Assembly (NCBI GenBank): GCA_038869515.1
Contig: JAWCQZ010000006.1
Coordinates: 78,122-122,286, forward strand
From: JAWCQZ01 sp038869515 [NCBI: Halobacteria archaeon]
Lineage (GTDB): Archaea > Halobacteriota > Syntropharchaeia > JACQPP01
Direction of reading: 5' to 3'
DNA length: 44,165 bases
Below are positions 7,358 to 25,590 of the stretch, in pieces. How positions within the stretch are numbered: the first letter of the stretch is position 1; every line of letters starts with the position of its first letter. The notes below the pieces were generated by a model. That model saw nothing but the letters and a program-made list of their open reading frames with translations, was not told the origin of the DNA and ran no database searches. The position numbers were made by a program, and so were the translations under genes.

Positions 7358-7389
7358 CCCGGTTCGGACCCTTGAGTCATGAGGAAGCC

Positions 7390-10260: not shown

Positions 10261-11273
10261 CCCCCCGATTCGCCTCCCCCCTTCTTCAGAACCTTTCGAT
10301 GGCGCAGGGCGGTGACGTAGTCCACGTACTCCTTCTCCCGCAGGAGGGCCTCGACGGTCGGGGCCCGGGAGAGCGTCGCCCCCGGGTCCCTCTCCACGAG
10401 GAAGGAGAGCGCGTCCGCCCCTCCGCCGCCGGAGGAGACCGCGAGGACCCGCTCCCCGGCCTTCGCCGCCTCGAGCGCCGCCGCCAGCCCGAGAAGGAAG
10501 GAGCCGCACCCCGCGTCCCCGGTCTCCCGGGAGGGGTCCCGGAGCCTCTCTTTCGGGAAGCCGAGCCCCTTCGCCGCGTCGGCCGCCCAGCGGGGCTGGG
10601 GGGCCTGGAGGAAGAGGTGGGCGTAGTCCGCGGGCTTCCGGCCCAGCGTCTCCAGCAGCCCCTCGACGGCCGCCGCCACCGGCTCCATGTATCCGTGGGT
10701 CCGGGCGAACCGCTCGTCGGCCTGCTTCGGGTAGGTCTCGCCCGAAGGTCGCCACCTCTCCGCGAGGTCGGTCGAGTGGGACCTCGCGCCTTCCAGCCGG
10801 GCGAGGCCCGTCCCCGGCCCGACGACCGCCGCTCCCGCGCATGCGCCTGCCGCGGCTTCGAGCGGGGAGCCGGGGGCCCCGGCGAGGACGTCGGCGGCCG
10901 CGACCAGGTGGAGCCCCGCCCCGTCGCAGGAGAGGAGGGCGAGGGCCGCTCCGCGGGCCGAGAGCGCGTGGTCCAGAGGCAGGGCCGAAGGGAGCGCTCC
11001 GAGGGCGTGGGCGAGGGGGGCGGCCAGCGAGCGCTCGGCGTACGGAGAGGAGACCGTGCAAAGCCGGACCGAGGCGAGGCGCTCGGGGGGGAGCGAGGCC
11101 CGAGCGAGGGCTCTCTCGGCCGCCGTCCGGGCCATCGTCAGGACCGTCTCGTCGGGTGCGGGGACCGCCCGCTCCCCGTCGGCCCTGCCGGGGGAACCCC
11201 ACGCCCTGGCGAACTCCTGGGCCCGGATGCGGTATCGGGGCACGTAACCGGCGAATCCGAGAATGGCGGTCAT
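10257..11273 (-). CDS. HMG-CoA-synthase-like protein lacking the catalytic triad
   Basis: A 338-residue protein whose framework follows archaeal HMG-CoA synthase: GYVPRYRI, SSPYAE, the APGSPLEAAAGACAGAAVVG loop (normally APGDALEYTAAAG), SGETYPKQ and LLGLAAALEAAKAGERVL. The three catalytic positions are not conserved. By alignment in memory, the general-base Glu is Val74, the acyl-binding Cys is Leu104 (in HALSARGAAL) and the His of FHQPNG is Leu222 (in LFLQAP). It therefore probably does not condense acyl-CoAs; a scaffold or allosteric partner for DUF35 and thiolase is likelier. It starts at the ATG at 11273, 5 bases after the acyl-CoA dehydrogenase stop, and overlaps DUF35 by ATGA. Confidence 0.85.
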   Translation of the reverse strand: MTAILGFAGYVPRYRIRAQEFARAWGSPGRADGERAVPAPDETVLTMARTAAERALARASLPPERLASVRLCTVSSPYAERSLAAPLAHALGALPSALPLDHALSARGAALALLSCDGAGLHLVAAADVLAGAPGSPLEAAAGACAGAAVVGPGTGLARLEGARSHSTDLAERWRPSGETYPKQADERFARTHGYMEPVAAAVEGLLETLGRKPADYAHLFLQAPQPRWAADAAKGLGFPKERLRDPSRETGDAGCGSFLLGLAAALEAAKAGERVLAVSSGGGGADALSFLVERDPGATLSRAPTVEALLREKEYVDYVTALRHRKVLKKGGGESGG

Positions 11274-11278
11274 CGCTT

Positions 11279-12511
11279 CTACTTCAACTGCTCCCGGGTG
11301 TATCCCAGAATCCTCCGGGCCACAATCAAGGTGTTGATCTGCCCGGTCCCCTCGAAGATGTCGTTGATCTTCGAGTCCCGGACCACCTTCTCGAGCAGCA
11401 GTTTCCGGCTCACCCCCTCCGGTCCCGCGAGTTCGGCGCACTTCTGGGTGACCTCCGTGACGACTCTGCCCGACAGCGCCTTCGCCATCGCCGCCTCGAG
11501 CGCGTTGGGCCTCTTCTGGTCGGCGAGCCATGCGGAGCGCCAGGTGAGAAGCCGGGCCGCGTGGACCGCCGCCTCCATCCTCGCCAGGTCCTGCTCCAGC
11601 GCGGTCAATTTCGACACCGAGAGGCCCCACCGCGGTTCCGCGCCCCGCTGTCTGAGGAGGTCCCTCAGCAGGTCGAGGGCCGCCCGGGCGAGGCCGACCG
11701 AGGCGGAGGCGACCACAGGACGGGTCCCGTCGAAGGTCGCCATCGCCGCCTTGAACCCCTCCTTCGAGCGCCTCTCGATGTCGGGCCAGCCGAGCATCTG
11801 GTCAAGCGGAATCCGCGCCTCCTCGAAGACGATGGAGACTGTGTTGGAGGCGCGGATGCCCATCTTCTTCTCGACCTTGGCGACCCGGACCCCCGGCGTG
11901 CCGGCCGGGACGATGAAGGCGCGCATCGTCCCGCGCCCCTCCGCCCCCTCCCCGCCCGGCGACAGCAGGCGGGCCCACGCCACGACCCACCCCTTCGAGT
12001 GCTCCAGGGCGAGCCCGCCGGAGGTAACGAAAATCTTCTCGCCGTTGAGGACCCAGTGGTCCCCATCGCGGTAGGCGGTGGTCCGGATGGACGCCGTGTC
12101 GGACCCGGCGCCGGGCTCGGTCATGGCCATGGCGCCCCAGGCGGGCTCCTCCCCGGCGAAGGCCGCCATCCATTTCTCCTTCTGGGCCTCGGTCCCGGCC
12201 GCCATCAGCGCCGCGCCCCCGAGCTGGGGGCCGGGGAGGCAGAGCATGAGGGCGCCGTCCCCCCAGACCAGCTCCTCCGTGACGATGGCGCCCGTCAGGA
12301 GGCGGCTCTGGCCGGGCCGGTTGCGGAACTCGCCATCGCCCCGCCGTCCCATCGCCTTCTCCATCTTGAAAACCTCGTTCACCAGCTCCCAGGGCACCTC
12401 GTGCTCCCGCTCGTCGTATTCGCGGGAGAGGGGCCGCAGTTTCCCTTTTGCGAACATATGGGCCATCTTTCGGCGCGTCTCGACCTCCAGGGGGACCTCA
12501 AAATCCACCAT
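11279..12511 (-). CDS. Acyl-CoA dehydrogenase
   Basis: A 410-residue FAD enzyme that forms a 2,3-enoyl-CoA. It has MAMTEPGAGSD for flavin and substrate contact, NGEKIFVTSG, and the catalytic Glu387 in NDIFEGTGQIN. The first gene of a minus-strand operon that continues with HMG-CoA-synthase-like, DUF35 and thiolase genes. Minus-strand TTAAAC about 28 bases upstream of the ATG could be its TATA box. Its electron acceptor (ETF) is not in the window. The substrate chain is unknown. Confidence 0.93.
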   Translation of the reverse strand: MVDFEVPLEVETRRKMAHMFAKGKLRPLSREYDEREHEVPWELVNEVFKMEKAMGRRGDGEFRNRPGQSRLLTGAIVTEELVWGDGALMLCLPGPQLGGAALMAAGTEAQKEKWMAAFAGEEPAWGAMAMTEPGAGSDTASIRTTAYRDGDHWVLNGEKIFVTSGGLALEHSKGWVVAWARLLSPGGEGAEGRGTMRAFIVPAGTPGVRVAKVEKKMGIRASNTVSIVFEEARIPLDQMLGWPDIERRSKEGFKAAMATFDGTRPVVASASVGLARAALDLLRDLLRQRGAEPRWGLSVSKLTALEQDLARMEAAVHAARLLTWRSAWLADQKRPNALEAAMAKALSGRVVTEVTQKCAELAGPEGVSRKLLLEKVVRDSKINDIFEGTGQINTLIVARRILGYTREQLK

Positions 12512-12535
12512 CCGTCGCCCTCATGGGGGTCGCGG

Positions 12536-12545
12536 GGTTTAACGG
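12536..12545 (-). promoter_or_regulatory. TATA-like box for the minus-strand thiolase operon
   Basis: The minus strand reads CCGTTAAACC, centred about 29 bases upstream of the ATG at 12511. The placement fits a leaderless transcript. Confidence 0.5.
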
Positions 12546-12559
12546 TTGGGGTCCGCTTT

Positions 12560-12684: not shown

Positions 12685-12709
12685 AAACCGGCCGCCGGTG
12701 AAGCGGCGA

Positions 12710-12719
12710 ATATTTTTAT
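12710..12719 (+). promoter_or_regulatory. TATA box of the 12-gene CoA operon
   Basis: ATATTTTTAT is centred 27 bases before the ATG at 12742. An in-frame ATG at 12718 lies inside the box itself, which argues against it as the start and for the leaderless start at 12742. Confidence 0.65.
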
Positions 12720-12741
12720 GGCCGAGGTCATCGGCTCTTCC

Positions 12742-13974
12742 ATGCCGAAGGAGGGTCACGTTTCGTTCGAGGATTTGAAGGTCGAGTTCGGATACAGCGC
12801 GACTCCCGCCAGCCTCTTCATGTACACGAAGGAGGAGAACCGGTTCCGCGAAAAGGTCCGCTCTTTCATCCGCGACAAGGTCGCGCCCCTGGCGGACGAG
12901 GCCGAGGCGACGGGGAAGGTGGAGCCGATCCGGAAGGCCATCCGTCTCATGGCGGACATCAACAAGGCCTACTTCCCGAAGGAGGTGGGCGGCGAGGGGT
13001 ACGGCGTCGTCCACCGCACCATCCGGGGCGAGGAGCTGACCGCCGTCTCCTACGCGGTGGCCATGGTGGGCGGGACATCGGTGGACCTTTTCGGGATGCC
13101 GGTGGCCAGGCACGGAACCCCGGAGCAGAAGAAGAAGTACCTGCCCCCGATAATGAAGGGCGACAAGATCGGCGGCATCTGCATCACCGAGCCGGGAGCG
13201 GGAAGCGACGCCGTCGGGGGCATGAAGATGGTCGCCAGGAGGGAGGGGAAGGAGTACGTCCTCAACGGCCAGAAGCGGTTCATCACGAACGGCTCCATCG
13301 CCGACTACCTGGTCCTCTACGCCCTGACCGACCCGAAGGCCCCCCACGGCCGGGGCATCAGCGCCTTCGTCATCGAGACCGAGGATTTGAAGGGGTTCGA
13401 GGTCCTCAAGGACTTCGAACTCATGGGGCGCCGGGGCGTTGTGAACTCCTGGCTCGCGTTCGAGGACTGCCGCATCCCCGCCGCGAACCTCCTCGGGAAG
13501 GAGGACCGGGGCATCGAGGTGATGCTCGACGGCCTCGACGGGGAGCGCATCGGCGGCACCTCGGGCTACGTGGGGTGCGCCCGCTCCGCCTACGAAATCG
13601 CCCTGAAATACGCGGGCGAGAGGATGCAGTTCGGAAAACCCCTCCGCGCCTTCGAGGGCGTCTCGTTCAAACTGGCGGAGATGTACTCCCGCCTCGAGGC
13701 GATGCGCCTCCTCATGCTCCGGGCGGCCCGCATGGTGGACGCGGGGCTCCCGGCCACCAAGGAGGCGGCCGCGGCGAAGTTCTTCGCCGCCGACAACGGC
13801 TGGTGGATTGTGGACGAGGCTCTCCAGATTCTCGGGGGCGTCGGCTACACCCGGGAGTTCCCCCTGGAGCGCTACATGCGGGATTTCCGGGTCGGCCGCA
13901 TCGCGGCCGGGAGCAGCGAAATCCTGCGGTTCCTGGTCCAGCGCGAACTCTACAAGGAGATCGGGTACAAGTGA
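12742..13974 (+). CDS. Acyl-CoA dehydrogenase, isovaleryl-type catalytic base
   Basis: A 410-residue acyl-CoA dehydrogenase, first gene of a 12-gene operon. It has CITEPGAGSDA, LNGQKRFITNGS and GGVGYTREFPLERYMRD. The usual C-terminal catalytic Glu position is Ala389 (RIAAGSSEI). However Glu268 in LDGERIGG falls where isovaleryl-CoA and long-chain dehydrogenases hold their base on helix G, so it is probably active. That points to branched or bulky substrates. The start at 12742 is preferred to 12718 because of TATA spacing. The stop is followed after one base by the next gene. Confidence 0.92.
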   Translation: MPKEGHVSFEDLKVEFGYSATPASLFMYTKEENRFREKVRSFIRDKVAPLADEAEATGKVEPIRKAIRLMADINKAYFPKEVGGEGYGVVHRTIRGEELTAVSYAVAMVGGTSVDLFGMPVARHGTPEQKKKYLPPIMKGDKIGGICITEPGAGSDAVGGMKMVARREGKEYVLNGQKRFITNGSIADYLVLYALTDPKAPHGRGISAFVIETEDLKGFEVLKDFELMGRRGVVNSWLAFEDCRIPAANLLGKEDRGIEVMLDGLDGERIGGTSGYVGCARSAYEIALKYAGERMQFGKPLRAFEGVSFKLAEMYSRLEAMRLLMLRAARMVDAGLPATKEAAAAKFFAADNGWWIVDEALQILGGVGYTREFPLERYMRDFRVGRIAAGSSEILRFLVQRELYKEIGYK

Positions 13975-13975
13975 G

Positions 13976-14860
13976 ATGGCCAAGGGAGAGGGCTCCGGGG
14001 ACAAGGTCATCCTCACCGTCGCCGCCACCGGCTCCATCCCCTCGCGGAAGGACAACCCGAACATCCCCTACACTCCCGAGGAGGTCGCGGAGGAGGTCCG
14101 GAAATGCGTCGAGGCGGGCGCCTCGGTGGTCCACCTCCACGCCCGCGATCCCAGGACCGGGGGGCCGACCTCGGACACCGCGATCTTCCGGGAATACATG
14201 GCACTCATCCGCGAGCGCACCGACATCGCCATCAACATCACCACCGGCGGGGGCCGCGAGGGGACCGGGGACAAATCGGGGCGGAGCAACGAGCAGGTCC
14301 TGGTGGACCGGCTCCGGGAACTCAAGCCCGAGATGGCGAGCCTGAACATGGGCACCATCAACGCCTGGCACACCCCGGTGAGCGACCGAGTCTTCATGAA
14401 CACCACGAAGATGGTGGAGGCTCTCGGCAAGACGATGATTGAAATCGGCGTGAAGCCGGAACTCGAAATCTACCACTCGGGGATGCTCAACACCGTGGAG
14501 ACCATGCGCCAGCGCGGGGCGCTGAAGGACCCCCCCCACCTCCAGTTCGTCCTCACGGGCGGGACCGGCGCGTCGCCCACCGTGAAGGACCTGCTCCACC
14601 TGGTCGAGTCGCGCCCCCCGGGCTCCACCTGGTCGGCCTGCGGCCTCGGGCGGCACGAGTTCCCCGTGGCCACCGCCGCCATGCTTCTCGGGGGCCACGC
14701 CCGGGTCGGGTTCGAGGACAACCTTTTCGTCTCCAGGGGGGTCCTGGCCAGGTCCAACGCCGAACTGGTCGCGAAGGCGGCCCGCATCGCCCGGGAACTG
14801 GGCCGGGAGCCGGCCACCGCGGACGAGGCGCGGGAACTCCTGGGGCTGCGGAAGCGATGA
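13976..14860 (+). CDS. Beta-keto acid cleavage enzyme (BKACE, DUF849)
   Basis: A 294-residue zinc enzyme of the BKACE family. These proteins combine a beta-keto acid with acetyl-CoA to give acetoacetate and a new CoA ester. The zinc-binding HLHARDP (His53, His55), the GTGDKSG loop, the central LEIYHSGML and the C-terminal GLGRHEFPVATAAMLLGGHARVG region (read in pieces) are present. The original member cleaves 3-keto-5-aminohexanoate; the family has many other substrates and this one is unknown. ATG begins one base after the dehydrogenase stop. Its end overlaps the next gene in ATGA. Confidence 0.92.
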   Translation: MAKGEGSGDKVILTVAATGSIPSRKDNPNIPYTPEEVAEEVRKCVEAGASVVHLHARDPRTGGPTSDTAIFREYMALIRERTDIAINITTGGGREGTGDKSGRSNEQVLVDRLRELKPEMASLNMGTINAWHTPVSDRVFMNTTKMVEALGKTMIEIGVKPELEIYHSGMLNTVETMRQRGALKDPPHLQFVLTGGTGASPTVKDLLHLVESRPPGSTWSACGLGRHEFPVATAAMLLGGHARVGFEDNLFVSRGVLARSNAELVAKAARIARELGREPATADEARELLGLRKR

Positions 14861-15912
14861 GCGGGACCTGGCGTTTTCTCTTCCATCCCGATCTGGGGAC
14901 CCAGCGCGCCCTGGGCCTCCGCGCCCTGCGGGAGCAGGGGGGGCTCAGGGACGCCATCCTTCTCCTCGGCTACCGGGAGCGGATGGTGAGCCTCGGGGCG
15001 TTCCAGGACCTCGACTCGGGGGTCGACCTGGAGGAGGCCCGCCGGCAGAACATCGTCCTCTTCCGCCGCTCCTCGGGGGGCGGTTTCGCCTTCATCGACC
15101 CGCGGGCCTACATGACCCTCGGGTTCACGGGCCCCGCGGAGTGGTTCACCGGCCTGGAGGGGGCGATGGAGCGGACCGGCCGCATGGCGGTCGCCGCCTT
15201 CCGGAGGCTGGGGCTCCCGGTGGACTACAGGCACGTGGGGGACGTGGTCGCAGGCCCGCGGAAGGTGGGCGCGGTCGTGGCCAGCCGCCTCGCGGCGGGG
15301 TACGACATCGGCCTCCCCATCAACCTGGTCCCGGTCGACTTCGCCCCCTACGAGCGGGTCTGCAGGATTCCCCCGGAGAAGTTCTCGGACAAGGAGTTCA
15401 AGCAGACCCAGGGCTACCTGGCGAGCCTGTCGGAGTTGGCGGCACGGACGGTGCGCCCGGAGGACGTCCGGGACTCCTTCGGCCGGGAGTTCGCCGCCAC
15501 CTTTGGGGTGAAGGTGGCGTTCTCCCGGGCCACCTCCGAGGAGCTGGCCCGGGCGGATGAACTGGGGGCTCTCATGGCCTCCCCCGACAGGCTCCGGCAG
15601 GTCTCCAGCCGGGCGCGTTTCCCCCGGGTCCCGGAGGGCCACCGGCTGGTCCAGGGGAACCACAAGGGGCGGAAGCTGGTGACCGCCCACGTCCTCGCCG
15701 ACGCCTGCGGCAAGCCGGTGGAGGTCATGTTCTCGGGCGACTTCTTCCTGAGGCCCGCGGAGGGACTCCGGGAAATGGAGCGGGCGATTGTTTCCGCCTG
15801 GGGAAGGCCGACCATCCGGGAGCGGGCCGAGGACGCCCTGAAGGGGGTCGAGATCCCGGGCCTCACCGCCGACGACTTCCTGGCGGCGGTCCGGAAGGCG
15901 GTCCAGCCGTGA
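14857..15912 (+). CDS. Lipoate-protein ligase-like protein (BPL/LplA family)
   Basis: A 351-residue protein of the biotin/lipoate ligase fold. RRSSGGGFAFID (70-81) matches the lipoyl-AMP loop RRxSGGGxVxxD. HVGDVVAGPRKVGA (126-139) corresponds to the GNDIxxxGKKIxG loop, with Lys136 in place of the catalytic Lys but with Gly-Asp where Asn-Asp is expected. Residues 255-345 look like the LplA accessory domain (HKGRKLVTAHVLADACG, FSGDFFLRPAEG). No lipoyl-domain protein (E2 or GcvH) is in the window, so its role in a CoA operon is unclear. ATGA coupling ties it to both neighbours. Confidence 0.82.
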   Translation: MSGTWRFLFHPDLGTQRALGLRALREQGGLRDAILLLGYRERMVSLGAFQDLDSGVDLEEARRQNIVLFRRSSGGGFAFIDPRAYMTLGFTGPAEWFTGLEGAMERTGRMAVAAFRRLGLPVDYRHVGDVVAGPRKVGAVVASRLAAGYDIGLPINLVPVDFAPYERVCRIPPEKFSDKEFKQTQGYLASLSELAARTVRPEDVRDSFGREFAATFGVKVAFSRATSEELARADELGALMASPDRLRQVSSRARFPRVPEGHRLVQGNHKGRKLVTAHVLADACGKPVEVMFSGDFFLRPAEGLREMERAIVSAWGRPTIRERAEDALKGVEIPGLTADDFLAAVRKAVQP

Positions 15913-16988
15913 ACGAGAAGGTGGCGGTCCTCGGCGCCTCCATCATTTCCCCGCAGGCCTCGGTCCGCCTCCAGAGGGAGGAGATGGTGTTCCACGCGTG
16001 CCGCAGCGCCCTGCGCCAGGCCGGGCTCGGCCGGGACGACCTAGGCGCCGTGGTCCAGTGCTCCATGGACATGCTCGACGGCCGCATCATCTCCTCTTCC
16101 ACCTCGGTGGAGCCCGCCGGGGCCTACCTCAAGGAGGAGGCGAAGGTGGCGGGAGACGGGCTCCTCGCGCTCATTCTGGGGTGGATGCGGGTCCTCTCCG
16201 GCGCGTTCGACGCCGTCCTGGTGGTCGCCCAGTGCAAGCCCTCCGAGACGCGGCCCGAGGCGGCCTATCGCGCCCTCTTCGATCCCTGGTACACCCGGCC
16301 GCTGGGGCTCGACCGGGTCTCGGCGGCCGCCCTCCAGGCCCGGCGGAGGATGGAGGGCGGTGGCCCGGCCCCCGGGACCCTCGCGAAAATCGTGGAGCAG
16401 CACCGGGCCCGGGGCGCGAAAAACCCCCGGTCCCGCTCGCCCAGGGTCTCTGCGAGGGAAGTCTTGCGCTCCCCGGTCCGGGCCTCTCCGATTCGCGTCC
16501 TGGAGATATCCCCGTTCGTGGACTCCGCCGCGGCCCTCGTCCTGGCGTCGGAGGACCTGGCGCGCAGCCACCCGAGCCCCGTCTGGATTGTCGGCGCGTG
16601 TCATTGCGTCGAGGAGCACCTCCTCGGGGAGCGCGAACTCCACCGCAGCCGCGCCCTGGAGGATGCCGCCGCCCGCGCCTACCGGATGGCGGGCCTCCGG
16701 CCCCGGGATTTGGATGCGGCCGAGCTGCACGCGGAGTTCTCCTACCAGGTCCCCCTCTGGTCTGAGGCTCTCGGCCTGGACGTCGGGCGGACCTCCGTGG
16801 ACCCCTCGGGGGGCTCCCTCGCGGGCCACGCCCCCTTCGTCGGCGGCCTCTCCCGGGCCGCCGAGGCGGTGCTGCAACTGCGGGGCGAAGCGGGACCGGT
16901 CCAGGTCCGCGGGGCGAAGGCGGCGCTGGCCCACGGAGCGGCGGGTCCCTGCGGGCAATCCCAGGCGGTGGCGATATTCGCGCGATGA
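15909..16988 (+). CDS. Thiolase-fold protein without the nucleophilic Cys (subunit 1)
   Basis: A 359-residue thiolase-superfamily protein starting at a GTG that overlaps the previous stop (GTGA). The thiolase cysteine segment (xNxCAxGS) reads EAKVAGDG, so Cys is Val80. The AEVHDC motif is AELHAEF (His kept) and the GHPIGATG motif is GHAPFVGG (His kept). It cannot use the normal thiolase mechanism. It forms an obvious pair with the next gene, also thiolase-fold, and with DUF35. Similar sets in other organisms act as retro-aldolases or as heteromeric thiolases with a non-catalytic subunit. Which applies here is not known. Confidence 0.85.
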   Translation: MNEKVAVLGASIISPQASVRLQREEMVFHACRSALRQAGLGRDDLGAVVQCSMDMLDGRIISSSTSVEPAGAYLKEEAKVAGDGLLALILGWMRVLSGAFDAVLVVAQCKPSETRPEAAYRALFDPWYTRPLGLDRVSAAALQARRRMEGGGPAPGTLAKIVEQHRARGAKNPRSRSPRVSAREVLRSPVRASPIRVLEISPFVDSAAALVLASEDLARSHPSPVWIVGACHCVEEHLLGERELHRSRALEDAAARAYRMAGLRPRDLDAAELHAEFSYQVPLWSEALGLDVGRTSVDPSGGSLAGHAPFVGGLSRAAEAVLQLRGEAGPVQVRGAKAALAHGAAGPCGQSQAVAIFAR

Positions 16989-18130
16989 GGGACGTGGCCA
17001 TCGCGGGCATCGGGCAGACCCGCCACGGCAAGCGGGAGGACGTGAGCATCCCTGAACTGGTCTCGGAGGCGGTGCGGGAGTGTCTGCGGGACGCGAGGGC
17101 CACCCCCCGGGAGGTGGACGCCGTCGTCTCGGGGAACATGGAGTGGTTCGAGGGGCTGCTCATGCCCGACCTGGTGGCGGTGGACGCCCTCGCCTCCGTG
17201 ATGAAGCCCGCGATGAAGGTCCAGACCGGGGGGACGGTGGGCGCCTCGGTTTTCCTCTCCGCCTACTACCACGTCGCCTCGGGCCTCTTCGACCGTGTCC
17301 TCGCCGTCGGGTTCGAGAAAATCACCGACTGCATCCACGCCCAGGCGGGCCTCTCCCTCGGCGACCCGGTCTACGGGAGGTTCGCCTCCTCCGGCGTGCT
17401 CGGCAGCTCCGCCCTGCAGTTGCGGCGCTACATGTGGAAATACGGCCTGACCGAGAAGCAGGTGGCCCACGTCGCCGCGAAGAACCGGACCAACGCCCTC
17501 CGGAATCCGAAGGCCCACATGCGCCAAGCCACCACCGTCGAACAGGTCCTCGCATCGCCGGTCATGGCCCACCCCATCCGCCTCCTCCACTCCTGTCCGC
17601 AGACAGACGGGGCGTGCGCTCTCCTCCTCGCGTCGGAGGATGCGGCCAGAGAGATGCGCGACGACCCCGTGCGGGTCCTCGGGACCGCCAGCGCCAGCGA
17701 CACCCCCCGCCACAGTGACCGCGACATGGCCGAGGCCGCGAGCCTCGCCGAGGCGGGGAGGCGCGCCTTCAAGAAAGCCGGCGTGGAGAACCCCCGGAAG
17801 TTCTTCCAGGTGGCCGAGCTCTACGACGCCTTCGCCCACCAGGAGGTCATCTGGAGCGAGGTCCTCGGCCTCTTTCCCCGGGGGAAGGGGGGCGTGGCTG
17901 CCGAGGAGGGGATCACCTCCATGGAGGGCGACCTGCCGTTCAACCCGAGCGGCGGGGTCCTCAGCACCAACCCCATCGGGGCCACCGCCATGATTCGCAT
18001 CGCTGAGGCCGCCCTCCAGGTCCGCGGCGACGCGGGCGAGCACCAGGTCCCGGGCGTGGAACGCGCCCTCGCCCACGGCTGGGGCGGGGGGCTCCCGCAG
18101 TTTAATGTGGTGACCGTCCTCGGGAGGTAG
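16985..18130 (+). CDS. Thiolase-fold protein, aldolase-like (subunit 2)
   Basis: A 381-residue thiolase-superfamily protein linked by ATGA to the preceding gene. The nucleophile segment is VQTGGTVGAS, so Cys is Gly83. The HDC histidine is Tyr280 in AELYDAF. The GHPIGATG histidine is Asn329 in STNPIGATA, with one residue fewer. Loss of all these residues with Tyr in place of His recalls SCP2-thiolase-like aldolases of steroid side-chain degradation (Ltp2), which work with a DUF35 partner. That is an inference from substitutions. DUF35 follows after two bases, supporting a complex. Confidence 0.87.
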   Translation: MRDVAIAGIGQTRHGKREDVSIPELVSEAVRECLRDARATPREVDAVVSGNMEWFEGLLMPDLVAVDALASVMKPAMKVQTGGTVGASVFLSAYYHVASGLFDRVLAVGFEKITDCIHAQAGLSLGDPVYGRFASSGVLGSSALQLRRYMWKYGLTEKQVAHVAAKNRTNALRNPKAHMRQATTVEQVLASPVMAHPIRLLHSCPQTDGACALLLASEDAAREMRDDPVRVLGTASASDTPRHSDRDMAEAASLAEAGRRAFKKAGVENPRKFFQVAELYDAFAHQEVIWSEVLGLFPRGKGGVAAEEGITSMEGDLPFNPSGGVLSTNPIGATAMIRIAEAALQVRGDAGEHQVPGVERALAHGWGGGLPQFNVVTVLGR

Positions 18131-18132
18131 CG

Positions 18133-18678
18133 ATGAAGAAGGCCCGGAAAAAGGAGCAGGGGCGCATCACCCGCATCCCCGGCGTGGTCACCATCGAGTA
18201 TAACTGGACCCTCGGCCGCATGGCAACGAAGTTCTACGACGGCCTCAAAGCCCGGAAAATCCTCGGCGCGAAATGCCCGAAGTGCGGGCGCATCGCCACC
18301 CCGCCCCGGGAGTATTGCGCCCTCTGCCTCGAGGAGACGGCCCTGGTCGAGGTGGGGCCCGGGGGGACCCTGGAGACCTTCTCGGTGGTCCACTACTCCT
18401 TCCCCCACCAGCCCCTCAAGCCCCCCTACACCTACGGCATCATCAAGTTCGACGGTTCCGACACCGGGCTGACCCACTTGGTCAAGGGGGACGAGAGGAC
18501 CCTCCGCATCGGGATGAGGATGGAGCCGGTGTGGCGGCCGAAGCGCACGGGACATCTCCGGGACATCCTCCATTTCAGGCCGGTGGAGCCCGCGCCCGGT
18601 GCTCGCTTGACCCCTGGCGTAAGTTGCCAGGGATGGGCGGAGGGAGAGGAGGTGGGTCGCAAATGGATTTCTCCCTGA
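18133..18678 (+). CDS. DUF35 OB-fold protein with zinc ribbon
   Basis: A 181-residue DUF35 protein. Zinc ligands are Cys48, Cys51, Cys62 and Cys65 (CPKC and CALC). The OB-fold follows (TLETFSVVHYSF, YTYGIIKFDGSDTG). It probably docks onto the two thiolase-fold proteins just upstream, shaping the CoA site. The fold should end near residue 155 (FRPVEP). The remaining 26 residues are encoded by a stretch with an inverted repeat (18612-18632) and overlap the next gene by 16 bases, so the tail may be a late addition. Confidence 0.9.
   Translation: MKKARKKEQGRITRIPGVVTIEYNWTLGRMATKFYDGLKARKILGAKCPKCGRIATPPREYCALCLEETALVEVGPGGTLETFSVVHYSFPHQPLKPPYTYGIIKFDGSDTGLTHLVKGDERTLRIGMRMEPVWRPKRTGHLRDILHFRPVEPAPGARLTPGVSCQGWAEGEEVGRKWISP
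18612..18632 (+). repeat. Short inverted repeat in the tail of the DUF35 gene
   Basis: CCCTGGC (18612-18618) and GCCAGGG (18626-18632) are separated by GTAAGTT. The element lies in the codons of the DUF35 C-terminal extension, about 30 bases before the start of the next dehydrogenase. Confidence 0.65.
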
Positions 18679-19814
18679 CCCCGGCTCAGGAGGCGTTGAG
18701 GCGCTCGGCCCGCGCGTTCGCCCTGCGCGAAATCGCGCCCAAGGTCGAGGGGATGGCCGAAGAGGAGGCCCTCGACGCGGGTTTGGTCCAGAAACTCAAA
18801 AACCGCTATGCTGGGATGTGGTTCCCGGCCAAATACGGCGGGAAGGGGACCCCCCTCGCGGACCTCGCGGTCGTCATGGAGGAGATTGGCGCCGTGAACC
18901 GCTCCTCAGCGCTGGTCATCGAGGGGGCGGGGCTGGCGGGATGCACCCTTCTCTTCGGAGGGACTGAGGCCCAGAAGAGGGAGTGGATTCCTCGCATCTC
19001 CCGGGGCAAGGCGTGGTTCGCCTTCGGCATGACCGACCGGGGCCCCGGCTCCGACCCGGTCTCCATGGCGACCCGGGCCGTGAAGACGAAAGGGGGCTAC
19101 CGCATCCGGGGGCAGAAGCGGCTCATCTCCAACTGCGACATCGCGACCCACCTCCTGCTGCTGGCGAAGAGCGACCCCTTGAAGGGGGCCCGAGGGATTT
19201 CCGCCTTCCTCCTGGAGAAGGACACCCCCGGGCTCAAGTTCGAGCAGATGCGCGGCCACGGAGATGTGGAACACCACGTCTTCCGCGTCTCGGCCGATTG
19301 CGAGGTCGGCCCGGAGGCCCTCCTCGGCGGCGAAGGGGAGGGATTCATCGCCGCCCTCAAGTCCATGGACCGGGGCCGAGTGGGCCTCGCCGCCGCGAGC
19401 GTGGGGCTCGCCCGCGCCGCCTGGGAGATGGCGGTGGCCCATGCGAAACGGCGCGTGGTCTTCGGGAGGCCCCTGAAGGAGTATCAGGCGGTCTCCTTCC
19501 CCCTGGCCGAACTGGCGATTCAGATCGACGCCGCCCGCTTCCTCGTCCACCGGGCCGCCTGGCTCGACGACCGGGGACTCCGCCACTCCACCGAGACCGC
19601 GATGGCGAAATATGCCGCCGGCGAGGCCGCTGCGGCGGCCACCGAGACTCTGATGCGGGTCCTCGGGGGGCTCGGGTGGAGCAAGGAGAGCCCCGCGGGC
19701 CGGTGGCTCATGGACGCGAAGACCGCCAACTACGGCCAAGGCTCGCAGGACATCCAGAAACTCATCATTAGCCGCGCCATTTTTGAGGAGAAGGCGCAGA
19801 GCCGGAGACGATAA
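18663..19814 (+). CDS. Acyl-CoA dehydrogenase-like subunit lacking the catalytic base
   Basis: A 383-residue acyl-CoA dehydrogenase homologue beginning MDFSLTPAQE. The fold is complete (FGMTDRGPGSD, RGQKRLISN, GGLGWSKESPAGRWLMD). The catalytic Glu of the YEGT motif is Gln359 (NYGQGSQDI), and the alternative helix-G position is Gly238 (MDRGRVG), so no base is evident. In mycobacterial ChsE-type alpha2beta2 dehydrogenases one subunit likewise lacks the Glu. It may pair with the 12742-13974 enzyme; this is inference. The ATG at 18663 overlaps the DUF35 gene by 16 bases and the stop overlaps the next start as TAATG. Confidence 0.88.
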   Translation: MDFSLTPAQEALRRSARAFALREIAPKVEGMAEEEALDAGLVQKLKNRYAGMWFPAKYGGKGTPLADLAVVMEEIGAVNRSSALVIEGAGLAGCTLLFGGTEAQKREWIPRISRGKAWFAFGMTDRGPGSDPVSMATRAVKTKGGYRIRGQKRLISNCDIATHLLLLAKSDPLKGARGISAFLLEKDTPGLKFEQMRGHGDVEHHVFRVSADCEVGPEALLGGEGEGFIAALKSMDRGRVGLAAASVGLARAAWEMAVAHAKRRVVFGRPLKEYQAVSFPLAELAIQIDAARFLVHRAAWLDDRGLRHSTETAMAKYAAGEAAAAATETLMRVLGGLGWSKESPAGRWLMDAKTANYGQGSQDIQKLIISRAIFEEKAQSRRR

Positions 19815-20896
19815 TGGACTTCTGGGAGGTCCTCTACACCCGCCGCGCCCACCGGCGCTTCGCGCCCGTGCCGGTCCCCGACGGGAAGCTGGAGCGCATC
19901 ATGGAGGCGGCGCGCATCGCCCCGAGCGACGAGAACCTCCAGTTCTCGCGCTACATCGTCGTCCGCGACCCCGAAATGAAGAACTACATGGCGGACCACC
20001 TGGCCGAGATGAAAGTCGTCTCCCAGTTCACCAAGGACCACGACCGGATGCTCTCCCGGATGTGGTACCTGCCGGAGAAGGAGCGCCTCCGCGCCTCGAT
20101 GGAGTTGACCCACGGCTCTCTGATGGCGAACGCCCTGCGCCAGGCGCCGGCGGTTCTCGTCGCTTGCTACACCAGCGCCTTCTGGGATTTTCCCGGCCGC
20201 CACCCCGAGATGCTCTCCCTCGCCTCCACCGCCATCGGGGTGGAGAACATGTGGCTCGCCGCCACCGAGCAGGGGCTCGGCACCTGCCACATCGGGGCCC
20301 CCCTGATGATGGACGAGCGGCGGCGCGAGCTCATCGCGGACGGCCTCGGGGTCCCCCGCTCATGGACACCCTACACCTGCCTCCCCATCGGGGTCCCCGC
20401 CCAGGAGAGGGCCGCCGGGCCGCCCCGATTCCCAATCGAATCGCTCTTCTTCGACGAGCAGTGGGGGCGAAGGTACATCCGCAAGGCGTTCCGGACGAAC
20501 GGGAAGGCCCCAAAACCCACGCCCGTCGCCCGCGCGCCCTCGTCCCCCGCGCGACAGGCGGTGTTGAAGCCCGCCGCGGACGGGCCCCGGGAGGGACTCG
20601 ACCTTCGGGTCCTGAGGGCGACCCGGGAGTTCATCCGGGCGGCCGCCGCCGAGCACGGCCTCGCCCCGGAGGTCCTCGCCGCCCTCGTCCTCGACGAGTT
20701 CGCGCGGGGCGAGGGCTACGTCCGCTCCGGCGCGGGGAGGCCGGGCGAGAAGTTGGTGGCCCTCAACTGGCCCTACATCTGCCCCATTGTTGCCGCTCCA
20801 CTCGGAAATCCTCCCGCACCGGTCCTCTCGGAAAACCTCTCGTTCCGTCGGCAACCGGGGATGTCCGCAGGCGAGGGGAGGGGGCGGCGGCGATGA
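19814..20896 (+). CDS. Nitroreductase-family flavoprotein with C-terminal extension
   Basis: A 360-residue protein. Residues 1 to about 225 are an FMN nitroreductase fold: FWEVLYTRRAHRRFAP with the FMN-contacting Arg cluster, APSDENLQFSRYIVV, and GVENMWLAATEQGLGTCHIGAP split over the middle. Such enzymes reduce enones, nitro groups or CoA-bound double bonds. After a Pro/Ala-rich linker at about 230-255, residues 260-360 form an unrecognised domain (LRATREFIRAAAAEHGLAPEVLAALVLDEFARGEG). Typical nitroreductases have about 200 residues, so the extension is unusual. Start TAATG overlaps the dehydrogenase stop and the stop overlaps the next gene as ATGA. Confidence 0.87.
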   Translation: MDFWEVLYTRRAHRRFAPVPVPDGKLERIMEAARIAPSDENLQFSRYIVVRDPEMKNYMADHLAEMKVVSQFTKDHDRMLSRMWYLPEKERLRASMELTHGSLMANALRQAPAVLVACYTSAFWDFPGRHPEMLSLASTAIGVENMWLAATEQGLGTCHIGAPLMMDERRRELIADGLGVPRSWTPYTCLPIGVPAQERAAGPPRFPIESLFFDEQWGRRYIRKAFRTNGKAPKPTPVARAPSSPARQAVLKPAADGPREGLDLRVLRATREFIRAAAAEHGLAPEVLAALVLDEFARGEGYVRSGAGRPGEKLVALNWPYICPIVAAPLGNPPAPVLSENLSFRRQPGMSAGEGRGRRR

Positions 20897-21150
20897 GCAA
20901 GTTCCTGGGAAACCCGAGACTGAAGTCGCACCACGCAGCCGAGTCCACGCCCCTTTTCCGAAAAATGCCGCTCCTCACCACCTACTTCGAGGAGGACATG
21001 AAGGGGAGGCTTGTCCTCACCCTCGACCCGGAGCTGCAGGAGGAGTTCGAGAAGGCGGTGGCCCGCCGGTACGGAAAGTACACCGCCCTGAACGCCCGGA
21101 GGGCGGGGTCGGAGGCCCTCAAGGCGTGGGCGAAGGAGAAGCGGAAATGA
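20893..21150 (+). CDS. Small basic protein, possibly ribbon-helix-helix
   Basis: An 85-residue protein coupled by ATGA on both sides, so it is a real member of the operon. I do not recognise a family with certainty. The second half (RLVLTLDPELQEEFEKAVARR, then NARRAGSEALKAWAKE) has the strand-helix-helix layout of ribbon-helix-helix DNA-binding proteins, and the charge is basic. The first 35 residues (HHAAESTPLFRKMPLLTTYFEED) are unlike that fold. It could regulate the operon or be a small accessory subunit; neither is shown. Confidence 0.65.
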   Translation: MSKFLGNPRLKSHHAAESTPLFRKMPLLTTYFEEDMKGRLVLTLDPELQEEFEKAVARRYGKYTALNARRAGSEALKAWAKEKRK

Positions 21151-21566
21151 AAACCGCGAGCCTGATGGCCGCCGAAAAAGCTCTCCGGGAGAACCGGGAG
21201 GGGCGCCTCCGGTGGGTCGAGCCCGACCTGGGCTACCCGGGCCGCGTGGTGAACCTCCGCGTCGGATCGGAGGGCTACCACTTCGTCGCGACCGCGGATG
21301 GCGCGCGGCTGGAGCGTGGCGAATACCCCGCCCCCGACGGGAGCCTCCTCCTCCCCGACGCCCGCGTCTGGGAGCGGCTCGCGTCGGGAGGCCTCTCGAT
21401 CGGGGAGGCCGTCCGCTCGGGGAAGGCCCGGGTCTGGGGCAACCTCAACGACGTGCAGGCGCTGCTGCGCATCGTCGCCCCCCGGGAAACCCCGCAAAAC
21501 GCGCCCGAGAGCGCGAGCGGAGCGAGCGCGCGAGGGCAGCGTTTTGCGCCCGCGCGAACGAAGTGA
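21147..21566 (+). CDS. SCP2-like sterol/lipid-carrier domain protein
   Basis: A 139-residue protein. Residues 25-110 look like an SCP2 sterol-carrier domain (VVNLRVGSEGYHFVATADG, SLLLPDARVWERLASGGLS, GKARVWGNLNDVQALLRIV). SCP2 domains hold fatty acyl-CoA or sterols, fitting an operon of CoA enzymes. The last 25 residues (from about 115) are encoded by palindrome copy 4 and read as low-complexity Ala/Ser/Arg. The normal domain end precedes them, so the palindrome seems to have extended the gene. ATGA overlap with the preceding gene; MaoC starts six bases after the stop. Confidence 0.78.
   Translation: MKTASLMAAEKALRENREGRLRWVEPDLGYPGRVVNLRVGSEGYHFVATADGARLERGEYPAPDGSLLLPDARVWERLASGGLSIGEAVRSGKARVWGNLNDVQALLRIVAPRETPQNAPESASGASARGQRFAPARTK
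21494..21547 (-). repeat. Bulged palindrome, copy 4 (inverted, inside a gene)
   Basis: GCAAAACGC (21494-21502) pairs with GCGTTTTGC (21539-21547). Inner arms GCCC (21503-21506) and GGGC (21534-21537) follow. The unpaired base is A21538, which is T on the minus strand, so this copy matches the others in inverse orientation. It encodes the C-terminal tail of the SCP2-like protein. Confidence 0.82.
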
Positions 21567-21572
21567 GCGCGC

Positions 21573-22028
21573 ATGGGCCTCTATTTCGAGGAGGTCGAGG
21601 TCGGGACCAAGTTCGCCACCCCGGCCCGGACCGTGACCGACAGCGACGTCATGACCTTCGCCCGTCTCACCGGCGACAACCATCCCCTTCACACCGACGA
21701 GGCCTATGCGAAGCGGTTCTTCCCGGGCCGCATCGCGCACGGCCTCCTCAACCTCTCCCTCTCCTCCGGGCTGAAGGTGAATCAGGCGACCTTCCGGGAC
21801 TCCCTCATCGCCTTCCTGGGGATGGAGAGTGTGCGCTTCCTCAAGCCGGTCCTCATCGGCGACTCCCTCCATGTCGAGACCGAGGTGGTCGAGAAGCGGG
21901 AGACGAGCAAGCCCGACCGCGGGGTCATCACCACCAAGTCCCTGACCAGGAACCAGCGGGGGGAGGTCGTGCTCGAGGAGGTGTCGAAACTGCTCGTCGC
22001 CCGGAAACCGGCGGGGAAAAAGCCGTGA
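21573..22028 (+). CDS. MaoC-like (R)-specific enoyl-CoA hydratase
   Basis: A 151-residue hot-dog fold hydratase. The hydratase motif is FARLTGDNHPLHTDEAYAKR with catalytic Asp35 and His40, followed by PGRIAHGLL. It adds water to a 2-enoyl-CoA. In the operon it would act after the acyl-CoA dehydrogenases and before C-C cleavage by the thiolase-fold pair. No hydroxyacyl-CoA dehydrogenase lies in the same operon, which favours a retro-aldol route directly from the 3-hydroxyacyl-CoA. The stop overlaps the next start as GTGA. Confidence 0.92.
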   Translation: MGLYFEEVEVGTKFATPARTVTDSDVMTFARLTGDNHPLHTDEAYAKRFFPGRIAHGLLNLSLSSGLKVNQATFRDSLIAFLGMESVRFLKPVLIGDSLHVETEVVEKRETSKPDRGVITTKSLTRNQRGEVVLEEVSKLLVARKPAGKKP

Positions 22029-23425
22029 ACCGGCGCGCCTCCGACGCCCTCTTCGGGAGAATCTTCCATCCCGGCTCCATCGCCCTCGTCGGTGCCTCCT
22101 CCCGCCAGAACTGGCAGTGGCTCCGCTCCTACCTCCTGGGGAACTTCTCCGGGAGGCTCTACCCGGTGAACCCCAACGTGGAGTCGATGCTCGGCTTCAA
22201 GTTTTATCCGGCGCCGGAGGCCATCCCCGACCGGATTGATTACGCGGTCATCCTCACCCCGGCCGCCACGGTCCCCGGGATTGTGGAGGCGTGCGGGCGG
22301 AAGGGGGCGGCGGCGGTCCAGATTTTCTCCTCGGGGTTCCGGGAGGCGGGGACCCGGGAGGGCGCGGCCCTCGAGGAGGAGCTCCTCCGCACCGCCCGGC
22401 GCGCCGGGGTCCGTATCATCGGCCCCAACTGCATGGGGGTCTACTGCCCCGAGTCGGGCATCGCATTCCGCGCCTCCTTCACGGCCAGGCCGGGGCCGGT
22501 TGCGGTCGTCTCGCAATCCGGCGGCTTCGCCATCGGCCTCGTCCTCTGGGGTCAGGAGCGCGGGGTCGGCTTCAGCAAGGTCGTCAATTACGGCAACGGG
22601 GCCGACCTCGACGGCGCTGACTTTTTGGGCTTCCTCGCCCGGGACCCGAAGACGAAAGTGATCGCCGCCTACGCCGAGGGGCTCAAGGACGAAAAGCGCT
22701 ACCTTGCGGCCCTGAGGCGGGCGGCATCGAAGAAACCCGTCGTCGTCCTCAAGTCGGGCCGGACCCGGGCCGGGTCGCGGGCCATGGCGCGCCACACGGG
22801 CCGGGAGGCCTCCTCCCACTCCGCGTGGCTCCGGGCGGTCCGCAGCGCCGGGGCCTTCCCCGCCGACTCCTTCACCGACCTTGCCGAGACGATGACCGCA
22901 TTCTCGATGCTTCCCCGGGCCCGGGGGCCGAGGGTCTCCTTCGTGGGGATGAGCGGTGGGGACGGGGTGGCGGCGTCGGACGCCATGGAATCCGCGGGGC
23001 TCAAGGTCTCGTCCCTGGGCCGCGACCTGAAGCGCCGCTTCTCGAAGGCCGCAGGCAAGGAGATTGACAACCCCGTGGACCTCGCAGCGGCCTACCTCGA
23101 CCCGAAGGTCCTCCGCGCCACACTCACCGGCCTCGCGGCCGACCCCGGGACCGACATCCTCGTCCTCGAAGTCCCCACCCGGGTCCTCGCTCCTGAACTC
23201 TACTTGGAGGAGGAGAAGGGGCTCTTCAACGCCCTCCACCGGAGTCTCCTGGCTGCCAAGGGCCGCGGGAAGCCGGTGGTGGTGGTGACCCGTTCCATCG
23301 AGGCGGAGGGGCGGCGCTGGGAGTTCGTCCGGGGGCTCTTCGAGGCGGGGATTCCGGTCTTCAGCGAGCACGGGGCGGCGGCGAAGGTGATGAGAAGGTG
23401 GGTCGATTACTGCCTGCGCCGGTAG
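22025..23425 (+). CDS. NDP-forming acyl-CoA synthetase, alpha (CoA-binding) subunit
   Basis: A 466-residue alpha-type subunit of the ADP-forming acyl-CoA synthetases, starting at a GTG. The CoA-binding Rossmann domain begins IALVGASSRQNW; the succinyl-CoA-synthetase-like domains carry RIIGPNCMGVY, VSQSGGFAIG and the phosphohistidine His257 in ARHTG, at the same number as the archaeal enzymes. The ATP-grasp beta subunit is neither fused nor adjacent, so it must be encoded elsewhere. It could activate the substrate or recover ATP from the acyl-CoA product. It is the last gene of the 12-gene operon. Confidence 0.88.
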   Translation: MNRRASDALFGRIFHPGSIALVGASSRQNWQWLRSYLLGNFSGRLYPVNPNVESMLGFKFYPAPEAIPDRIDYAVILTPAATVPGIVEACGRKGAAAVQIFSSGFREAGTREGAALEEELLRTARRAGVRIIGPNCMGVYCPESGIAFRASFTARPGPVAVVSQSGGFAIGLVLWGQERGVGFSKVVNYGNGADLDGADFLGFLARDPKTKVIAAYAEGLKDEKRYLAALRRAASKKPVVVLKSGRTRAGSRAMARHTGREASSHSAWLRAVRSAGAFPADSFTDLAETMTAFSMLPRARGPRVSFVGMSGGDGVAASDAMESAGLKVSSLGRDLKRRFSKAAGKEIDNPVDLAAAYLDPKVLRATLTGLAADPGTDILVLEVPTRVLAPELYLEEEKGLFNALHRSLLAAKGRGKPVVVVTRSIEAEGRRWEFVRGLFEAGIPVFSEHGAAAKVMRRWVDYCLRR

Positions 23426-24735: not shown

Positions 24736-25590
24736 ATGGCCATCGAGAGGGTCGCGGTCGTCGGCGCCGGGACCATGGGGAGCGGCATCGCCCAGTCCGC
24801 CGCCCAGAGCGGGTTCCAGACCCTCCTCGTGGGCCGAGACCCGGCCCGTATCGAGGGCAGGTTCGAGGAGATGAAGAAGGGGATGGCCCGCTCGGTGGAG
24901 AAGGGGCGGCTGCAGAAGGCGGATATGGAGATGGTCCTGAGGAATCTCCGGGCCTCCGCCTACCTCGCCGACGCGGCGGAGGCCGACCTCATCGTCGAGA
25001 GCGTCGTCGAGGACAAATCGGCGAAGAAGAAACTCTACGGCGAGCTCGACCGCATCTGCCCCGACAGGACGCTGTTCGCCAGCAACACCTCCTCCCTCTC
25101 CATCACCGAACTCGCCTCCTCCACCCGCCGCCCCGACCGGTTCGCCGGGATGCACTTCTTCAATCCGGTCCCGGTGATGAAACTGGTCGAGGTTGTCCGG
25201 GGCTCCTCCACCTCCGACGCGACCATCTCGGCGGTGGTCCAGGTGTGCGAGAGGATGGGCAAGAGCCCCATCATCGTCAAGGACGTGGCGGGGTTCGCGG
25301 TGAACCGCCTCCTCTTCCTCTTCATGAACGAGGCGATGGAGGCCCTCATGGAGGGGGTCTCGACGGCGGAGGAGATCGACAAGGCGATGCGGCTCGGCCT
25401 GAACCACCCGATGGGGCCCCTGGAACTGGCGGATCTGGTCGGCCTCGACGTCACCCTCAGCATCATGGAGTCGCTCCACGCCGAGCACGGGGAGCGGTTC
25501 CGCCCCTGCCCTCTCCTGAAGAACCTGGTCCGCGCCGGCTACCTGGGCCGGAAGACCGGCCGGGGCTTCTACGTCTACGCGAAGAAGTAG
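24736..25590 (+). CDS. 3-hydroxyacyl-CoA dehydrogenase
   Basis: A 284-residue NAD-dependent enzyme that oxidises 3-hydroxyacyl-CoA to 3-ketoacyl-CoA. The N-terminal Rossmann motif is [15 protein letters not shown]. The catalytic His is in [17 protein letters not shown] at about 138, with the partner Glu in [12 protein letters not shown] and the Asn of [12 protein letters not shown]. The C-terminal dimer domain ends [14 protein letters not shown]. The length is normal for the single-function bacterial and archaeal type. The next gene, enoyl-CoA hydratase, starts directly after its stop, giving a two-gene beta-oxidation unit. Confidence 0.96.

Follow-up and report, generated by a model that had tools for sequence, protein, structure and literature searches.

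What does an archaeon do with an operon of coenzyme A (CoA) thioester enzymes in which two thiolase-fold proteins lack the residues of a thiolase? The operon lies in a 44,165-nucleotide stretch of DNA from JAWCQZ01 sp038869515 (contig JAWCQZ010000006.1, positions 78,122 to 122,286), referred to throughout, at its full length, as the window. Twelve open frames, g1 to g12, follow one another on the + strand from 12742 to 23425 (coordinates read from the sequence; g10 stops at 21566), with spacings of +1, −4, −4, −4, +2, −16, −1, −4, −4, +6 and −4 bases. The contig has a G+C content of 70% and encodes aRF-1, which marks it as archaeal. A preliminary description, made from the letters alone, had noted that the twelve genes are joined by overlaps or by gaps of at most six bases, and had named most of them as Pfam and NCBIfam do: two acyl-CoA dehydrogenases (g1 and g7), a beta-keto acid cleavage enzyme (BKACE; g2), a DUF35 protein (g6), a nitroreductase (g8), a MaoC hydratase (g11) and an NDP-forming acyl-CoA synthetase subunit (g12). 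It had given no name to g3, which is lipoate-protein-ligase A/B-like, or to g9, which has no Pfam match, and its SCP2 sterol carrier, g10, is below the Pfam cut-off (Table 1).

The same description likened the operon to the actinobacterial steroid module built on the aldolase Ltp2, and suggested a retro-aldol route for bulky or cyclic acids. That interpretation is partly supported. As described below, the two thiolase-fold proteins, g4 and g5, resemble a different pair, Ltp4 and Ltp3. To judge from sequence, an archaeal, BKACE-linked, non-thiolase module of the Ltp3/Ltp4 type is real, conserved and new; from it we infer a reaction and a substrate.

Family and phylogeny of the thiolase-fold pair

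By Pfam, g4 and g5 are both Thiolase_C_1 proteins. The best NCBIfam model for g4 is PRK07937 (191.4 bits, cut-off 419) and for g5 PRK08313 (373.6 bits, cut-off 514); we refer to proteins of these two kinds as ‘A-type’ and ‘B-type’. Pairs from Streptomyces and Seongchinamella exceed both cut-offs, and by these scores g4 and g5 are best described as relatives of the two families, not filed as members. In the order of Nocardia, PRK07937 exceeds its cut-off in 21 of 61 genomes. Two reference regions (L097 and L098) have genes for an acyl-CoA ligase and an enoyl-CoA hydratase, for a protein in which DUF35 occurs twice, and for A and B, together with a luciferase-like oxidoreductase and KshA-like genes; genes that were not scanned carry the names that we presume from the starts of their sequences. 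This gene order resembles that of Rv3515c–Rv3526. Within the latter, Rv3522 is ltp4 and Rv3523 is ltp3 (excerpt of PMC6429209), and on this match A is the Ltp4 type and B the Ltp3 type.

Excerpts of PMC6678751 describe Ltp3–Ltp4 as a ‘heteromeric aldol-lyase’ that acts on sterol side chains branched at C24, and propose a route by C28 carboxylation, hydration and Ltp3–Ltp4 aldol cleavage, with a carboxylate still to be thioesterified. Both proteins are essential for the degradation of such side chains, according to the title of Wilbrink 2012. As far as these sources go, the function of Ltp3/Ltp4 is deduced from gene knock-outs and proposed pathways in actinobacteria that degrade sterols.

In a 72-row tree of thiolase-fold proteins, g4 groups with the A-type proteins and Ltp4 (support 99/92). 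The grouping of g5 with the B-type proteins and Ltp3 is only weakly supported (93/56); it falls within the combined A+B set of 48 rows (99/93), separate from Ltp2 and from thiolases. The A protein of an actinobacterial metagenome-assembled genome (MAG; L029) is the sister of g4 (99/94), and both are long branches. Ltp2 occupies a different set of 11 rows (100/99); the reference sequences for Ltp2 exceed the PRK07855 cut-off, and the one from L085 matches 6OK1 with 613 bits. The tree thus bears out the claim that the pair stands outside ordinary thiolases, and goes against the proposed parallel with Ltp2–ChsH2. An Ltp2-like identity of the pair was rejected on the tree and on the residues (YDAF, with no second Tyr).

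Two Dehalococcoidia loci (L009 and L024) each have, besides an A/B pair, a further two thiolase-fold proteins, which the tree places with Ltp2 (100/99), and CrtI-like oxidoreductases. These loci may serve to cleave the side chains of steroids or hopanoids in Chloroflexota.

Active-site residues

In Ltp2, the Tyr of YDHF is the base and a second Tyr is the acid; in Sal, the Tyr and Cys of YDCY are catalytic and Gly replaces the nucleophilic Cys (excerpt of PMC12329534). Tyr280 of g5 aligns with both the Ltp2 base and the catalytic Tyr of Sal. At the three thiolase positions (nucleophilic Cys, HDC Cys and GHP His), g5 has Gly, Ala and Asn (Asn329), and g4 has Gly, Glu and His. Both proteins have therefore lost the Cys residues, as the preliminary description reported, and the GHP His of g4 is the sole thiolase residue that it keeps. 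In all 64 B-type sequences, Tyr occupies the base position, Gly the nucleophile position, and Asn that of the GHP His. In the 58 A-type sequences, the residue aligned with the Tyr varies (Ser in 31, Tyr in 10, His in 5, some other residue in 12), and the nucleophile is replaced throughout, by Gly in 49, Ser in 5 and Ala in 4, so that none has Cys there; this suggests a heteromer in which catalysis would take place in the B subunit.

The known aldolases share some of these features. Ltp2–ChsH2 (6OK1) has the thiolase fold, the DUF35 partner and the base Tyr in common with g4–g6, and likewise lacks a nucleophilic Cys; it differs in its motif (YDHF, not YDAF), in its second Tyr—where, of 19 B-type sequences aligned for this position, 18 have Gly and one has Val—and in having no second thiolase-fold subunit of the kind present here. 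Sal–Shy (9MYR) also combines a thiolase fold with DUF35, a Tyr base and Gly at the nucleophile. Unlike g5, Sal needs Cys304 (of YDCY), and Shy is a MaoC–DUF35 protein. The Sal-type motif with its catalytic Cys is absent from g5: that position, two residues past the Tyr, is Ala in g5 (YDAF) and Pro in 64/64 B-type relatives.

Haloarchaeal plasmids carry thiolase-fold pairs as well (L082:5422-7730 and L083:11926-14324), and a zinc-ribbon gene adjoins the L082 pair, which falls within the A+B set. The B-like members of both have Phe at the Tyr position and no nucleophile Cys.

Predicted structures

The predicted models of g5 and g4 (mean predicted local distance difference test scores, pLDDT, of 90.9 and 91.8) both match best the archaeal acetoacetyl-CoA thiolase (ACAT) of 6esq/6et9: g5 with Z 56.0 (1.8 Å, 374 residues aligned) and g4 with Z 50.8 (1.7 Å, 357 aligned). 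For g5 and g4, respectively, Z is 46.4 and 41.6 against 6ok1, and 46.8 and 42.1 against Sal (9myr); PhlC gives 46–51 against the two models. In the case of g5, SCP2-type thiolases, DUF35-partner thiolases and the two aldolases all lie at Z 45–56, and classical thiolases at about 38. The models therefore indicate a thiolase fold of the SCP2-type, DUF35-partner kind. Since such thiolases and the aldolases score alike, the fold alone does not show an aldolase function, and the structural comparison that had been proposed earlier did not single out the aldolases, 6esq/6et9 standing above 6ok1. The DUF35 protein g6 matches the DUF35 chains of 3irb, 6esq, 6ok1 and 9myr, and is the predicted partner of g4 and g5.

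Conservation in distant bacteria

A genome scan with g5 yielded 77 loci, the best at 45% identity over the full length (two fragments reach 53 and 55%). None is archaeal by its title, and the archaeal comparison is with the haloarchaeal plasmids. From loci L001–L058 we collected the 58 A-type and 64 B-type sequences discussed above, each of at least 330 aa. A-type proteins occur in 53 of these 58 loci, B-type in 57, and both in 52; B directly follows A in 48, and just one of the two is present at this length in L035, L040, L051, L054, L056 and L057. By tblastn, the same loci contain matches to DUF35 (54), g1 (32), g7 (32), BKACE (13), MaoC (10) and g12 (5); g8 has one weak match (L039), and g3, g9 and g10 have none. 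Clustering of the neighbouring genes gives DUF35 in 37 loci, acyl-CoA dehydrogenase in 28, enoyl-CoA hydratase in 15, AMP ligase in 14, BKACE in 13, CrtI-like FAD proteins in 8, CrtC-like proteins in 7, CoA-transferase subunits in 6 and 5, and a g12-like alpha subunit in 5. Many neighbours of the pair thus belong to catabolic families. Genes in the relatives were called mechanically, by taking the longest open frames, and some have probably been missed: clustering finds DUF35 in 37/58 loci, tblastn in 54/58.

The recurrence of g4–g5–DUF35 in distant bacteria argues that the twelve-gene set is not a chance assembly. As to the conservation of gene order that the preliminary description had made a test of its proposal, the content of the module is conserved in other genomes (the pair in 52/58 loci), and the complete twelve-gene set was found in 0/77. 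In a Chloroflexi MAG (L008) and a Dehalococcoidia MAG (L011), a protein resembling 3-hydroxy-3-methylglutaryl-CoA synthase (HMGS) joined to DUF35, a thiolase, two dehydrogenases, A, B and two DUF35 proteins run in one direction, and L008 also has BKACE. These Chloroflexota share the content of an arm of the window that is divergent from the operon: an HMGS-like protein without the expected Cys, DUF35 and a thiolase. In L029, the thiolase and HMGS-like–DUF35 genes diverge from A, B and DUF35, as they do in the window.

At the position that we take to be that of the HMGS catalytic Cys, the window protein has Ala, L008 and L011 have Leu, and L029 has Val; in no column of the alignment do all four have Cys. 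The Cys-less HMGS-like and DUF35 parts form one protein in L008:3466-4908, L011:195-1676 and L029:1234-2661, and are split in the archaeon (9862-11273); a thiolase gene adjoins each of the four. The archaeal ACAT/HMGS complex (6esq/6et9) resembles this arm in uniting a thiolase, an HMGS-like protein and DUF35, and provides the top structural match of g4 and g5; it differs in that g4 and g5 are without the thiolase Cys and the arm's HMGS-like protein is without its own.

Elsewhere among the relatives, a CoA-transferase subunit pair (PF01144) shortly follows BKACE in L041:13260-15098, L042:12708-14546, L046 and L057; the two subunits scanned received no NCBIfam name. A PHP-domain-like gene, one of which was scanned, lies upstream of A/B in five deltaproteobacterial loci (L002:614-1192, L050, L052, L053 and L058).

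The link to BKACE and a possible class of substrate

BKACE enzymes (the 3-keto-5-aminohexanoate cleavage enzyme and its relatives) convert a 3-keto acid and acetyl-CoA to an acyl-CoA and acetoacetate, so a 3-keto acid released by aldol cleavage would suit them. g2 matches the PF05853 profile over its full length (1–274 of 274); with each of four NCBIfam models listed, its score stays under the cut-off. Co-localisation was measured in 35 genomes. They contain 36 of the 58 loci, among them every one of the 13 in which BKACE was already known. Of 83 BKACE rows, three fragment rows were dropped, leaving 80; the A-type genes are the 95 rows among the matches listed (to about E 3e-84), and chance expectation supposes uniform gene placement. 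On this basis, 23 of the 80 BKACE genes have an A-type gene no more than 6 kb away, where about 1.1 are expected, and they come from 16 of 27 BKACE-bearing genomes. Eight of the 23 are, by coordinates, loci known before the genomes were chosen; 15 remain.

CrtC-like genes are within 6 kb of these A-type genes in 6 of 31 cases (0.42 expected), and CrtI-family genes are within 10 kb in 10 of 97 (2.25 expected), tandem copies counted; three of six CrtI-like proteins scanned exceed a phytoene-desaturase-family cut-off. This enrichment makes isoprenoid chains a lead, not a result.

The 4.0 Mb genome of HGW-Deltaproteobacteria-19 (G003, L004) encodes at least nine A-type proteins and eleven BKACE, five of the latter within 6 kb of an A-type gene: a large paralogous expansion.

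The acyl-CoA dehydrogenases

One dehydrogenase had been described as lacking its base, and so it does: at two positions, either of which we take to be able to carry the catalytic Glu, g7 has Gln and Gly. g1 keeps Glu at the isovaleryl-CoA dehydrogenase position, and its top match in PDB (4o5m) is an isovaleryl-CoA dehydrogenase. The acid on which that enzyme acts is beta-branched, which supports a beta-branched substrate here. A FadE28/29-like identity of g1 and g7, implied by the earlier parallel, was not supported: in a dehydrogenase tree (four rows longer than 480 aa left out) both lie, on long branches, outside the FadE28-like and FadE29-like groups, names that we assume from operon position in actinobacterial Ltp2 regions. 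The loss of Glu in g7 thus looks independent of that in the Glu-less FadE28-like group, and g1 and g7 are perhaps paired. Nor is there a fused MaoC/DUF35 hydratase, as the parallel would have it; the two are separate genes. Five Dehalococcoidia loci (L030, L041, L042, L044 and L047) each have a run of three dehydrogenases, two with Glu and one without. The Glu-less ones group with those of two actinobacterial Ltp2 regions (11 rows, 100/100).

A proposed route and its alternatives

We propose, tentatively and at a little under even probability, that the island 8628-23425—operon and divergent arm together—encodes a CoA-thioester route for beta-branched acids by way of retro-aldol cleavage, with BKACE taking up the keto acid. 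The enoyl-CoA would be formed by g1, possibly in a complex to which g7 contributes no catalysis, and hydrated by MaoC (g11). The branched beta carbon would make the 3-hydroxy intermediate a tertiary alcohol, which cannot be oxidized to a 3-ketoacyl-CoA. g4–g5–g6, with Tyr280 of g5 as base, would instead cut the C–C bond by retro-aldol reaction, giving acetyl-CoA or propionyl-CoA and a ketone. Were the branch carboxylated beforehand, as has been proposed for C24-branched sterols, the product would be a 3-keto acid instead, and g2 would convert this, with acetyl-CoA, to a shortened acyl-CoA and acetoacetate. The unbranched part would be finished by the thiolase of the divergent arm and the hydratase and dehydrogenase downstream. 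The most likely class of substrate, we infer, is isoprenoid: sterol or hopanoid side chains, or phytanyl chains.

Several observations weigh against this proposal. There is no carboxylase among the window proteins scanned, nor, judged by sequence look, among the neighbour clusters common to at least five loci. g5 departs from its 64 relatives in having Ala for Pro; it has no equivalent of the second Tyr, the general acid of Ltp2, and no replacement acid was found. ACAT ranks above the aldolases in the structure search, and no activity assay of Ltp3/Ltp4 appeared in the literature excerpts. BKACE is present in 13 of the 58 loci and not in 45 (contigs are often short), and it may be some other substrate that connects BKACE with A/B. 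As for isoprenoids, most CrtC matches in Pfam score close to the cut-off, CrtI counts include the tandem copies, and neither family occurs among the window proteins scanned. Finally, the operon is flanked by genes for a 3-hydroxyacyl-CoA dehydrogenase and for a true thiolase, so that the window also encodes ordinary beta-oxidation. The earlier statement that no hydroxyacyl-CoA dehydrogenase is present holds for the operon and not for its surroundings, where one lies on the same strand 1.3 kb downstream.

Ordinary beta-oxidation might indeed be all that the island performs, the thiolase of the divergent arm cleaving after this dehydrogenase has acted, and g4 and g5 serving as non-catalytic acyl-CoA-binding or scaffold proteins. 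The necessary enzymes are encoded, the thiolase has its residues intact, and the Cys-less HMGS-like proteins suggest that inert partners of the thiolase superfamily do occur in such islands. The invariant Tyr, Gly, Pro and Asn of 64 B-type sequences argue for an active site that has been kept, however, and by the title of Wilbrink 2012 Ltp3 and Ltp4 are essential for C24-branched side chains; we think this account improbable. Still less likely are two others, to which we give about equal, and little, credence. One is the original suggestion, in which bulky cyclic acids would be degraded by an Ltp2–ChsH-like aldolase together with a heterotetrameric dehydrogenase of the FadE28/29 kind: the Tyr, the DUF35 protein and the dehydrogenase without a base would fit, but Ltp2 falls in another tree set and its second Tyr is absent, g1 and g7 are outside the FadE28/29-like groups, and MaoC is not fused to DUF35. 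The other is a pathway for aromatic or alicyclic acids around a benzoylsuccinyl-CoA-thiolase-like enzyme. The DUF35 protein does match BbsA, and the thiolases BbsB, and a neighbouring ligase is phenylacetate-CoA-ligase-like, all under the cut-offs; the BbsA and BbsB scores are far under them, however, and BbsB uses a thiolase Cys, which g4 and g5 do not have.

Among known systems, the closest to our proposal is Ltp3–Ltp4 (Rv3523/Rv3522) with the DUF35 protein Rv3521. Like g4–g6, it consists of two adjacent thiolase-fold proteins and DUF35, g4 grouping with Ltp4 and g5, with weak support, beside Ltp3; there is no nucleophilic Cys, and the Tyr and Asn of B are kept. Unlike it, the archaeal pair is under the PRK07937 and PRK08313 cut-offs and has BKACE in its operon, g5 has Ala for Pro, g6 has one DUF35 domain where four actinobacterial regions checked have two fused, and no P450 or Rieske/KshA-type oxygenase is among the window proteins scanned.

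Other features of the window

Downstream of the operon are an enoyl-CoA hydratase and, on the minus strand, a CoA ligase. g3 combines an LplA-like catalytic domain with a weakly LplB-like C-terminus, within a CoA catabolic operon. Further downstream is a luciferase-like oxidoreductase, with look-alike genes in the Ltp3/Ltp4 regions L097 and L098. Should the route release an aldehyde, it could be oxidized by an aldehyde dehydrogenase whose gene lies some 7 kb from the divergent arm, and a SelR protein (methionine sulfoxide reductase) hints at exposure to oxygen.

Table 1. Genes of the operon, its divergent arm and the rest of the window
Feature	Coordinates	Strand	Basis or remark
Aldehyde dehydrogenase	202..1806		PF00171, 505 bits
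aRF-1	7384..8628		536 bits, cut-off 234.7
Thiolase; Cys82, HDCY and GHP intact	8628..9770	-	divergent arm
Second DUF35	9862..10260	-	divergent arm
HMGS-like protein without expected catalytic Cys	10257..11273	-	divergent arm; PRK04262 231.6 bits, cut-off 244
Acyl-CoA dehydrogenase, Glu at C-terminal (medium-chain acyl-CoA dehydrogenase, MCAD) position	11279..12511	-	divergent arm
g1, acyl-CoA dehydrogenase, isovaleryl-CoA-dehydrogenase-type Glu (GLDGERI)	12742..13974	+	Pfam; top PDB 4o5m; base check
g2, BKACE	13976..14860	+	PF05853 335 bits, cut-off 24.8
g3, lipoate-protein-ligase A/B-like (catalytic domain)	14857..15912	+	PF21948 60 bits; LplAB weak
g4, thiolase-fold subunit A (Ltp4 type), Gly for Cys	15909..16988	+	PRK07937, tree, model
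g5, thiolase-fold subunit B (Ltp3 type), Tyr280 of YDAF	16985..18130	+	PRK08313, tree, residues, model
g6, DUF35, ChsH2-type zinc ribbon and OB fold	18133..18678	+	PF01796 and PF12172
g7, acyl-CoA dehydrogenase without catalytic Glu	18663..19814	+	Pfam; PDB alignment
g8, nitroreductase-family flavoprotein, C-terminal extension	19814..20896	+	PF00881 91.5 bits, residues 9-193 of 360
g9, 85 aa	20893..21150	+	no Pfam match
g10, small, weakly SCP-like	21147..21566	+	SCP_3 23.3 bits, cut-off 38
g11, MaoC hydratase	21573..22028	+	PF01575 96 bits
g12, NDP-forming acyl-CoA synthetase, only alpha subunit	22025..23425	+	NCBIfam, Pfam
3-Hydroxyacyl-CoA dehydrogenase	24736..25590	+	downstream of operon
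Enoyl-CoA hydratase	25591..26367	+	downstream of operon
Luciferase-like oxidoreductase	28752..29834		downstream of island
SelR protein	39542..39916

Significance

A survey of 8,277 genomes placed aerobic steroid degraders in Actinobacteria and Proteobacteria only, with none in Archaea (excerpt of PMC4810484). Searches of open-licence papers listed none whose title or opening lines of the abstract deal with this archaeal operon or with a link between Ltp3/Ltp4 and BKACE. An archaeon and many uncultured bacteria carry relatives of the Ltp3/Ltp4 pair; their active site is conserved and is not that of a thiolase, they are statistically associated with BKACE, and they suggest a testable chemistry in which the product of an aldol-lyase is passed to BKACE. 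Extended further, and here we consider the idea doubtful, one module common to the archaeon and to Chloroflexota, deltaproteobacterial and actinobacterial lineages would shorten beta-branched isoprenoid chains, a Cys-less aldol-lyase of the Ltp3/Ltp4 type, with its own active site (Tyr, Gly, Asn), supplying 3-keto acids to BKACE so that the thioester is regained without a ligase. If true, this would give the cleavage of phytosterol side chains a counterpart in archaea, and might explain the breakdown of isoprenoid lipids in sediment; the pair itself may be a marker for the turnover of branched or isoprenoid carbon.

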